DNA of 64,000 nt, taken from Halorubrum ruber (GTDB lineage Archaea > Halobacteriota > Halobacteria > Halobacteriales > Haloferacaceae). Location: NCBI RefSeq assembly GCF_018228765.1, contig NZ_CP073695.1, positions 186,001-250,000 of the forward strand. The letters run 5' to 3'. This document shows positions 16,304 through 28,443 of the stretch, one piece after another. Under the pieces are notes generated by a model. That model was not told the origin of the DNA. It did no database searches and was given only the letters and a program-made list of their open reading frames with translations. The position numbers and the translations under genes are program-made. The first letter of the stretch is position 1. Each line of letters opens with the position of its first letter.

Positions 16304-17698
16304 ATGAGCGAACGCACGACAGCCATCCTACTGATCGCGGTCGTCGCGCTCGGCGCGATGACCGGCGTCGCGGCCGCCGACGGACAGTTCGACGTGGCCG
16401 TCGACACGGACGCGGACGGGACGTCGACGGTCACGGTGATCGAGAACGACACCGCCGTCGAGAACGCCACGGTCGTCGTGAGCGTCGTCGACGCGGAGAA
16501 CGAGTCGTACGCGGGAGCGGGCGAGTACGAGACGGACGCGAACGGCACCGTCGACCTCGAAGCGCCCGAGGAGGACGTGACGGTCGAGGTCACGGCCGCC
16601 GCGGGTAACGACACCGCCGCGACGACGGTCGAGCTCGAAGCCCCTGACGGCCTCGAACTCGACGTGGCGGACACCGACGGCGAGCCGGTCGTCACCGTGA
16701 CGGACAACGACACCGCGGTCGAGAACGCGACGGTGAACGTCACCGTTGCCGACCCCGCGAACGAGTCGTACGCCGGCACGGGCGACTACGAGACCGACGA
16801 GAACGGCACCGTCGGACTCCCCGCCGCCGAGGAGGACGTCACGGTTGACGTGACCGCGACGTACGAGAACGAGAGCGTCTCCGAGACGGTCGAGATCGAG
16901 GCGCCCGACGGCCTCGAACTCGACGTGGAGAACACCGACGGCGAGCCGATCGTCACGGTGACGAACGACGACGAGGCGGCCGAGAACGCCTCGGTCACCG
17001 TCGAACTCGCCGACGATGCGGGCGAGAACGCCTCCTACGCCGGCACGGGCGACTACGAGACCGACGAGAACGGCACCGTCGATCTCCCCGCCGCCGAGGA
17101 GGACGTCACGGTCGAGATCACCGCTGAGTACGAGAACGAGAGCGTCTCGACGACCGCCGACCTCACCGTCGGCGACGAGGGCGACGAGGCCGACGAGCAG
17201 GCGTTCGGCCAGCTCGTTCAGGAGTTCATCGACGGGCTCGAGAACCGCGACGGCGGCATCGGCAGCGCGGTCTCGGACTTCGTGACGGAGAACAACCCCG
17301 GTAACGCCCCGGACCACGCGGGCGGCCCCGGCGGCCCGGACGAGGCCGACGATGACGACGATGAAAACGAGAGCGACGCGCCGGGCAACGCGCCCGACCA
17401 CGCGGGCGGCCCCGACGGCGAGGACGACGGCGAGCGCGGCCCGCCGGCCCACGCCGGTCCGGGCGGTGACGACGCGGATGACGACGATGCGGACGACGAG
17501 GAGGACGACGCCGACGAGGACGAGACGGAGAACGATGCGGACGATGAGGACGAGACGGAGGACGACGAGGCCGAAGAAGACGAAGCCGAAGCGGAAGACG
17601 GCGACGATGACGATGACGACGAAGACGAGACGGAAGATGACGACGACGACGGCGAGAGCGGCCCGCCGGACCACGCCGGCGGCCCCGGCGGTAACTGA
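16304..17698 (+). CDS. Exported repeat protein with acidic tail
   Basis: 464 aa. A Sec-type signal peptide (AILLIAVVALGAMTGVAAADG) ends near residue 26. Three tandem repeats of roughly 90 residues follow, sharing ENATV.V...ESYAG.G.YETD.NGTV.L and EDVTVEVTA. They look like cell-surface beta-sandwich (peptidase-regulatory or CARDB-like) domains and carry many N-x-S/T sequons. After about residue 290 comes a low-complexity region with repeated PDHAGGPGG units and long Asp/Glu runs. There is no C-terminal membrane helix or PGF anchor, so the protein is either released or held by other means. Function unknown. The ATG at 16304 begins the signal peptide directly. Confidence 0.8.
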   Translation: MSERTTAILLIAVVALGAMTGVAAADGQFDVAVDTDADGTSTVTVIENDTAVENATVVVSVVDAENESYAGAGEYETDANGTVDLEAPEEDVTVEVTAAAGNDTAATTVELEAPDGLELDVADTDGEPVVTVTDNDTAVENATVNVTVADPANESYAGTGDYETDENGTVGLPAAEEDVTVDVTATYENESVSETVEIEAPDGLELDVENTDGEPIVTVTNDDEAAENASVTVELADDAGENASYAGTGDYETDENGTVDLPAAEEDVTVEITAEYENESVSTTADLTVGDEGDEADEQAFGQLVQEFIDGLENRDGGIGSAVSDFVTENNPGNAPDHAGGPGGPDEADDDDDENESDAPGNAPDHAGGPDGEDDGERGPPAHAGPGGDDADDDDADDEEDDADEDETENDADDEDETEDDEAEEDEAEAEDGDDDDDDEDETEDDDDDGESGPPDHAGGPGGN

Positions 17699-25136: not shown

Positions 25137-25207
25137 GGGACCGTGGGTTAGTGGTATACTCCGAGCCTTGGGTGCTCGTGACCCCGGTTCGAATCCGGGC
25201 GGTCCCA
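25137..25207 (+). tRNA. tRNA-Pro (anticodon UGG)
   Basis: The acceptor stem GGGACCG pairs with CGGTCCC. The anticodon arm is CGAGC-CTTGGGT-GCTCG, giving anticodon TGG (reads CCA/CCG proline codons). The T-arm is CCCCGGTTCGAATCCGGG. 71 nt, no intron, CCA not encoded. It is followed by a duplicate of its 3' 26 nt. Confidence 0.95.
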
Positions 25208-25369
25208 CTTTTGCGGCGCGAGCAAGTCCGCGAGCGCCGCAGCCGTGGAGCGGATTCGAACCCTACCGGGCGCGCGCAGTGAGCGTAGCGAACGAGCACG
25301 TCCGGGTCCGGTTCGAATCCGGGCGGTCCCACTCTGCTCCTGCGAATAGCCTATGAGCAGCGGTGACGG
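25208..25369 (+). repeat. tRNA-Pro trailer: inverted and direct copies of the T-arm and 3' end
   Basis: An exact 26-nt copy of the tRNA-Pro 3' end (CCGGTTCGAATCCGGG... CCCACT) is at 25308-25333, 124 bp after the original at 25184-25209. Before it, near 25249-25268, CGGATTCGAACC is an inverted copy of the T-loop region (12-bp perfect complement). Between the two arms is the haloarchaeal GAGCGNAGCGAACGAGC-type sequence. The result is a T-arm palindrome that ends in a tRNA 3' terminus. Non-coding. Confidence 0.75.
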
Positions 25370-27871: not shown

Positions 27872-27945
27872 GCCGCCTTAGCTCAGACTGGGAGAGCACT
27901 CGACTGAAGATCGAGCTGTCCCCCGTTCAAATCGGGGAGGCGGCA
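27872..27945 (+). tRNA. tRNA-Phe (anticodon GAA)
   Basis: The acceptor stem GCCGCCT pairs with AGGCGGC. The anticodon arm is CTCGA-CTGAAGA-TCGAG (anticodon GAA) and the T-arm CCCCGTTCAAATCGGGG. 74 nt including the discriminator A, no intron. Its last 20 nt recur three more times in the following 420 bp. Confidence 0.95.
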
Positions 27946-28443
27946 TTTTCCTGCGAACCTACGAGGGAGCGCAGCGACCGAGTCGTGAGCAGCGAAAATG
28001 CTCCCGACCCGATTTGAGCAGACGAGTCGCGAGCCCGAGCGGAGCGAGGGCGAGCGTCTCGGCGAGTTCAAATCGGGGAGGCGGCATGGCTTTTCAGCGC
28101 GATCTACATTCGTTAGCCTTGACTGAAGATCGAGCTGTCCCCCGTCCCCGCGAGCGGAGCGAGCGGGGAACAGTGAGACGACCGGAGGGAGTCTCACGCG
28201 TTTCAAATCGGGGAGGCGGCATTTTCCTGCGAACCTACGAGGGAGCGCAGCGACCGAGTCGTGAGCAGCGAAAATGCTCCCGACCCGATTTGAGCAGACG
28301 AGTCGCGAGCCCGAGCGGAGCGAGGGCGAGCGTCTCGGCGAGTTCAAATCGGGGAGGCGGCATAGCTTTTCAGCGCGATCCGCATTCGTTAGCCTTGACT
28401 GAAGATCGAGCTGTCCCCCGTCCCCGCGAGCGGAGCGAGCGGG
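27944..28443 (+). repeat. 276-bp tandem repeat built from tRNA-Phe fragments
   Basis: The unit starting CATTTTCCTGCG at 27944 begins again at 28220. The second copy runs to about 28443 and differs by only a few bases. The tRNA-Phe 3' 20-mer (TTCAAATCGGGGAGGCGGCA) is at 27926-27945 (in the tRNA), 28067-28086, 28202-28221 and 28343-28362. An anticodon-arm/variable-loop fragment (GACTGAAGATCGAGCTGTCC, continuing CCCGT) recurs at 28121-28145 and 28397-28421. At 28121-28221 it is joined to the 3' end through a 56-nt insertion, so that copy is a broken tRNA. An inverted T-arm (CCCGATTTGA) precedes each 28067/28343 copy, around GAGCGGAGCGAG. Long frames across this stretch on both strands are repeat artefacts. 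Confidence 0.85.

Follow-up and report, generated by a model that had tools for sequence, protein, structure and literature searches.

The window analyzed here, 64,000 nucleotides of the Halorubrum ruber chromosome within a 3.02-Mb single contig on which Rfam finds 45 tRNAs, carries on its forward strand a tRNA-Phe(GAA) gene at 27872-27945 (detected by ARAGORN and by Rfam, RF00005, 61.3 bits), followed directly on the same strand by a tandem array. The original prediction that the final 20 nt of the gene, TTCAAATCGGGGAGGCGGCA, occur four times proved exact: beyond the copy that ends the gene itself (core 0, 27926-27945), perfect copies lie at 28067-28086 (core 1), 28202-28221 (core 2) and 28343-28362 (core 3), and the predicted spacing of 141, 135 and 141 bp was reproduced.

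The array alternates two unit types, U1 of 141 bp and U2 of 135 bp. U1 runs from a core through a hairpin (H1), an inverted copy of the T-loop (iT) and a second hairpin (H2) to the next core. In the first cassette, H1 (27946-27998), evident from the sequence as an inverted repeat with T-run and A-run ends, abuts the discriminator base of the tRNA; it is followed by iT (28008-28019, CCCGATTTGAGC) and by H2 (28020-28066), which has the loop GAGCGGAGCGAGG and the flanks AGTCGC...CGTCTC and was delimited from the sequence and by genome-wide comparison. U2 (28087-28201) comprises a 31-nt lead, a fragment of the anticodon arm and variable region (28118-28145) and, between this fragment and core 2, a 56-nt stretch (28146-28201) in which two hairpins interrupt the T arm; this bears out the earlier reading of one copy as a tRNA interrupted by a 56-nt insertion. 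The cassette then recurs at 28222-28342 (H1 28222-28274, iT 28284-28295, H2 28296-28342; a 99% repeat family), and after core 3 a second, truncated U2 without a final core (28363-28443) repeats the anticodon-arm fragment at 28394-28421 (28 nt, 96%), as had been noted. What the first reading missed is that inverted T-loop copies, at 28011-28017 and 28287-28293, form long palindromes with the next core (28011-28074 and 28287-28350).

The U1-U2 pair is itself duplicated with a 276-bp period and 98-99% identity, the second copy ending at 28443 (TRF: period 276, 1.9 copies, 98% matches, 27926-28443). The near-identity of the 276-bp units had been taken as the mark of a recent duplication, which holds for this pair; the unit types, however, are old, as an anticodon-fragment unit like U2 is also present in a genome of another family (G055, family f6). 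An H1-like start after tRNA-Phe occurs in other families too. Several families have members whose tRNA-Phe lacks a cassette and relatives in which it has one. Elsewhere in the window, a 261-bp tandem repeat of 2.8 copies (16430-17154) has no tRNA gene near it.

Comparison with relatives, for which 34 genomes of the same genus were searched, revealed a different set of Phe cassettes in the sister species (genome G027; 90% identity over the matched part of the array) and two to five cores in those congeners whose fetched locus includes the gene. An assembly artefact was rejected: more than 20 further genomes from the genus contain arrays, and the sister comparison was made between two single-contig genomes. 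In agreement with the original prediction, no integrase was detected nearby, the tyrosine-recombinase family PF00589 giving 0 matches in the window's stretch of chromosome; no integrase gene lies between or beside the att-like copies of the Phe array, where the gaps are about 120 nt.

Cassettes behind other tRNA genes

The Phe array is one case of a genome-wide and order-wide pattern. A second example, overlooked at first, lies in the window itself: on the forward strand, tRNA-Pro(TGG) (25137-25208; ARAGORN) is followed by a T-type, U1-like cassette (25209-25331) with H1, iT, an H2 of type A that differs from the Phe H2 (palindrome 25253-25319) and an exact core copy (25313-25331). Across the chromosome, 16 of the 45 tRNAs are followed by at least one copy of their own 3'-terminal 19 nt, with at most two mismatches and within 520 bp downstream, as against 1 match in 578 tests with the 3' ends of other tRNAs, that single match being probably a real tRNA-Met gene downstream of tRNA-Asn. 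With copies of the last 13 nt also counted, the figures rise to 20/45 here and 22/42 in the sister species (controls, 6/3191). Most of these tRNAs share the same build, the typical order being tRNA 3' end, H1, iT, H2 and tRNA 3' end again. Palindromes of the form GATTYGA-N32..62-TCRAATC occur 12 times in the chromosome, each time directly 3' of a tRNA gene, and the reversed-pattern control gave none. One of these, at 2674555, had seemed to stand without a tRNA but adjoins a tRNA-Gln gene that contains an intron and that Rfam had not detected; this tRNA-Gln(TTG), with its cassette, lies at about G000:C1:2674641-2674791 (L226). Seven matches to the 34-nt type-A H2 exist in the genome, each of them no more than 250 bp beyond the 3' end of a tRNA (two Ala, two Gly, Val, Asp and Pro).

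Beyond this species, 238 of the order's 293 genomes and 77 of its 87 genera contain a stricter palindrome (GGATTTGA-N32..62-TCAAATCC), with a reversed-pattern control of zero. Among genomes sampled across the phylum, it was present in 44 of the 53 that belong to the order as opposed to 14 of the 242 that do not. Because the matches examined, in two of these 14 genomes, do not resemble tRNA ends, we take the outside matches to be probably near chance. Of 30 palindrome loci that were fetched, 27 lie directly 3' of a tRNA gene. A search of 84,980 species genomes for the type-A H2 yielded matches in Halobacteria alone, 22 of them in 21 stretches and, among the named genomes, mostly in Halorubrum; all 22 run into an apparent tRNA 3' end (16 with an ARAGORN tRNA at most 700 bp upstream), and the tRNAs concerned are those for Ala, Gly, Val, Asp, Pro, His, Ser and Leu. 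When phage and plasmid sequences were searched for similarity to the Phe array, only tRNA matches came back, and no type-A H2 was found in viral contigs. The iT-core palindrome had five matches in viral contigs, with different flanks and no complete tRNA gene; these five IMG/VR contigs (L221-L225) carry palindromes from sequence resembling a tRNA 3' half, with flanks unlike the haloarchaeal cassettes.

Turnover between sister species and integrase islands

Whole cassettes are missing, repeated or reordered in the sister species, with breakpoints at the core boundaries. At tRNA-Ala(GGC), H. ruber has core, 113 nt, core and CTCCTGCGCTCAC, whereas the sister has core and CTCCTGCGCTCAC, an exact empty site; exact tRNA-end repeats together with a clean empty site, as expected of an integrated element, are demonstrated here for tRNA-Ala(GGC) rather than for the Phe array itself. 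At tRNA-Arg(GCG) the cassettes stand in the order X-Y in one species and Y-X in the other, and tRNA-Ser(TGA) displays a similar swap. In the sister, core copies follow tRNA-Lys(TTT) with an exact 111-bp period over four steps, and tRNA-Val(GAC) and tRNA-Glu(CTC) with two equal steps each, of 123 and 106 bp. In a further genome (G185:C11:920259-920428; L094), a cassette lies inverted about 20 kb from a similar series of cores (941095-942149), perhaps by an inversion through these repeats. No island could be tied to an apparent displaced unit in the same genome, G185.

Exact loss, tandem repetition and changes of order could alternatively come from replication slippage between 20-bp repeats. In its full form, an account of this kind, which we consider somewhat unlikely, posits a tRNA-seeded satellite without a dedicated recombinase: a 3' end would have been duplicated around a hairpin, and the units would then have been multiplied, deleted and permuted by slippage or unequal exchange promoted by the palindromes, with palindrome correction keeping iT matched to the core. 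The equal-period copies at Lys, Val and Glu speak for it, and order swaps would be possible by duplication followed by deletion, an intermediate whose form the Phe array (U1-U2-U1-U2') has. Every core, moreover, is local (no foreign tRNA core, which would signal movement between tRNAs, was found in 87 trailers), and mismatches are slightly rarer in inner cores than in the last core (0.43 against 0.81). The satellite would, however, leave unexplained how cassettes with the same H2, such as type A at eight kinds of tRNA, arose at new tRNAs, why iT exists at all, why the core boundaries match the places within tRNAs where integrases have their att sites, and why the arrays are confined to one order.

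Integrase islands use the same tRNAs. Five were examined: four at type-A units without a tRNA in reach (L135, L140, L143 and L144) and one at tRNA-Lys(CTT) of H. ruber itself, all inspected by eye. A complete integrase-like ORF, identified by reading its sequence, lies in L140, and L143 and L144 have the apparent end of one; in L135 no integrase was recognized on reading. The 5.2-kb island of H. ruber (G000:C1:1909546-1914835; L155) lies between tRNA-Lys(CTT) and its array, contains a PF00589 match and has displaced an exact core. The order is the tRNA (in H. ruber; none in the other fetched stretches), the island, a full core or a 9-13-nt partial core, and then H1-iT-H2-core; in L135 the displaced core is longer, starting from the anticodon arm. 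Because the islands sit between tRNA and array and have displaced whole arrays, the arrays appear to predate them. A tyrosine-recombinase gene also lies 1.6 kb beyond the tRNA-Tyr array of H. ruber (G000:C1:1432765-1435162; L153), for which no distal Tyr core was found within about 38 kb.

On the integrase side of the displaced core, iT-H2 is found in none of the five islands. The cassettes are therefore not simply the attP arms of these islands, and the earlier suggestion that the locus is a stack of att sites, read as a plain stack of island att sites, is not supported, the islands examined having no iT hairpin on that side and the array lying beyond the island. A related possibility, that the arrays are scars of ordinary islands that integrated one upon another and lost their cargo, strikes us as extremely unlikely. 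Islands do use these tRNAs, and the fragment from anticodon to T arm in U2 resembles the long att of L135; the H1-iT-H2 build, however, is common to unrelated tRNAs and genera, is too regular for random deletions and is absent from the integrase side of the islands.

The T-loop palindrome, as DNA or as RNA

Cores extend from the T-loop as far as the discriminator base; there is also a second class, ending in acceptor copies of 13 nt, and an anticodon-arm class is represented in U2. Among 68 distinct iT/core pairs, mismatches number 2-7 of 68 over the first eight positions of the core and 24-40 of 68 beyond. Variants of the T-loop tend to recur in iT (A57 with T in 27/38, G57 with C in 7/11), and TT at T-loop positions 59-60 is matched by iT in 4/4. 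Over its whole 16 nt, iT fits the local tRNA modestly better than other tRNAs (mean 10.65 vs 9.63), the local one being the better match in 85/114. Since mismatches are few at the T-loop, its variants are tracked by iT and the overall fit is modest, the palindrome is centered on the T-loop and fits the local tRNA there. Single-base insertions in core copies are concentrated in the central part of the T-loop (13/22), as in TTCACAATCC, seen at the Phe genes of three other families and also at Gly, Thr and Lys; this is where the junction of a strand exchange would be expected.

The same features could belong to a transposition-like process, in which an H1-iT-H2 element of about 75-115 bp inserts with a 13-21-bp target duplication and iT serves as a guide that pairs with the T-loop. 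Target duplication would account both for the local cores and for the H2 types common to several tRNAs, the close match of iT at T-loop positions, its decay beyond them and its tracking of variants would suit a guide, and casposons are known to target tRNA 3' ends. We nevertheless regard this as improbable, duplications of 20 bp being unusual for transposases and the order swaps requiring additional recombination.

The original prediction also considered a tRNA-derived RNA gene. On the sense strand the units fold more stably than on the antisense strand beyond shuffled sequences (z -3.8 vs -2.7; 86/114 units), a difference that goes against the cassette model set out below and would suit an RNA. 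The acceptor and T stems of real tRNAs of the same genome, however, favor G.T over A.C mismatches (19 vs 0), and the array stems are without such a preference (G.T 52 vs A.C 50 overall; 17 vs 22 in the helix of iT with the T-loop part of the core), in counts that are not independent, the units being mutually related and many of them coming from Phe. The stem finder used for the arrays gave only 10 vs 5 when applied to tRNAs, which limits the power of this test. The sense strand also has an excess of T.T over A.A (66 vs 13) and of A.G over C.T (77 vs 23) mismatches, which we take to reflect in part the fixed H2 motif AGTCG...CGTCT.

Because the stems lack a preference for G.T over A.C, these data favor conservation at the level of DNA, with a strand-specific feature, over an RNA gene. 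That the array is a tRNA-derived or tRNA-trailer RNA gene with conserved RNA hairpins, like rttR of E. coli, seems to us very unlikely, even though rttR sits in comparable repeats and the greater stability and the conserved T.T and A.G mismatches are both on the sense strand: in addition to the missing wobble asymmetry, an Rfam search of the locus returned only tRNA matches (up to E 5), the T-runs right after the tRNA suggest early termination, and the number and order of the units differ between sister species. Of the three readings first offered for the locus, a small tRNA-targeting element comes nearest, insofar as the architecture recurs behind many tRNAs and cassettes turn over at core boundaries.

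Possible mechanism and relation to known systems

Our preferred reading, held tentatively and as possible rather than probable, is that the arrays are non-coding DNA cassettes at tRNA 3' ends, acquired by site-specific recombination and multiplied by exchange or slippage. From the observed architecture, locality, turnover and order we infer an enzyme, a circle and a crossover within the T-loop. The tRNA gene would gain a cassette through a strand exchange within its T-loop, catalyzed in trans by tRNA-targeting tyrosine recombinases, which are common in haloarchaea. The incoming cassette would bring a new 3' end, leaving the tRNA intact, and the old end, displaced, would become the next core. 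Exchange or slippage between the cores, which are direct repeats, would then alter copy number, possibly with help from the hairpins, and the 276-bp duplication in the window may be one such event; the array would be explicable without any host function. Recombination in trans is favored because the core boundaries fall at the known sites of integrase action within tRNA genes and because the insertions cluster in the middle of the T-loop. The cores are always local, yet H2 types are shared, so that movement between tRNAs is not directly explained by the cassette model.

The boundaries are those of tRNA att sites used by SNJ2-like and other archaeal integrases, which lie at the T-loop, the acceptor end or the anticodon arm and include the discriminator base, and the 13-bp acceptor cores have the size of the att reported for SNJ2 integration (PMC8371274). 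The arrays differ from tRNA att elements in having no genes between cores, a spacing near 100-150 bp and an internal inverted T-loop. With attC arrays of integrons they share a fold of inverse core, hairpin and core, tandem cassettes by a primary site and changes of order; the haloarchaeal cassettes, however, have no ORFs, and the array core GTTCRAAT has C at the fourth position, whereas the integron core consensus is GTTRRRY / RYYYAAC. It is unlikely, in our judgment, though conceivable, that they form a clade-wide system of gene-free, integron-like cassettes, with the tRNA as the primary site and iT-H2-core recombined in the T-loop by a putative recombinase, so that in most haloarchaea shuffling arrays would stand behind many tRNAs.

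In form, the closest known relatives are the 178-bp repeats of E. coli tyrT/tyrV (rttR, tpr), and the tyrT repeats were described long ago. There too, a tRNA is directly followed by tandem repeats that each include a copy of that tRNA's 3' end, the arrangement of rtT and tRNA-linked repeats that the Phe array shares; in MG1655 we confirmed 3'-end copies at 178-bp steps after tyrV. The E. coli repeats differ in several respects. At the one tRNA locus examined, the core copy starts inside the T-loop (TAATCC...) and has three mismatches in 22, and no inverted T-arm copy was found in the MG1655 tyrV repeats. Moreover, they encode RttR and Tpr, whereas the haloarchaeal arrays occur at many tRNAs, contain iT hairpins and change in order. 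REP and BIME palindromes are likewise short, GC-rich extragenic hairpins in multiple copies (PMC2817692), but the cassettes are confined to tRNA 3' flanks (12/12), start with GATTYGA rather than a GTAG lead and have target-specific arms, which is not the pattern of REP/RAYT elements. A different palindrome has been reported downstream of tRNAs in Methanopyrus kandleri (PMC5217627). No prior description of the present arrays was found in the literature searched, and they seem to represent a kind of tRNA-anchored repeat, clade-wide in extent, that has not been described before.

Mobile DNA in prokaryotes docks mainly at the 3' ends of tRNA genes. Across an archaeal order these ends also anchor small, non-coding palindrome arrays that vary between related species. 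Should the idea of a recombinase prove true, the arrays would provide a new cassette system and a simple way of assaying tRNA-directed recombination by counting; should slippage prove true, they would serve as a clean natural model for how palindromes drive repeat change at essential genes. Under either reading, the arrays can mislead the annotation of tRNAs and att sites and show up as spurious ORFs.
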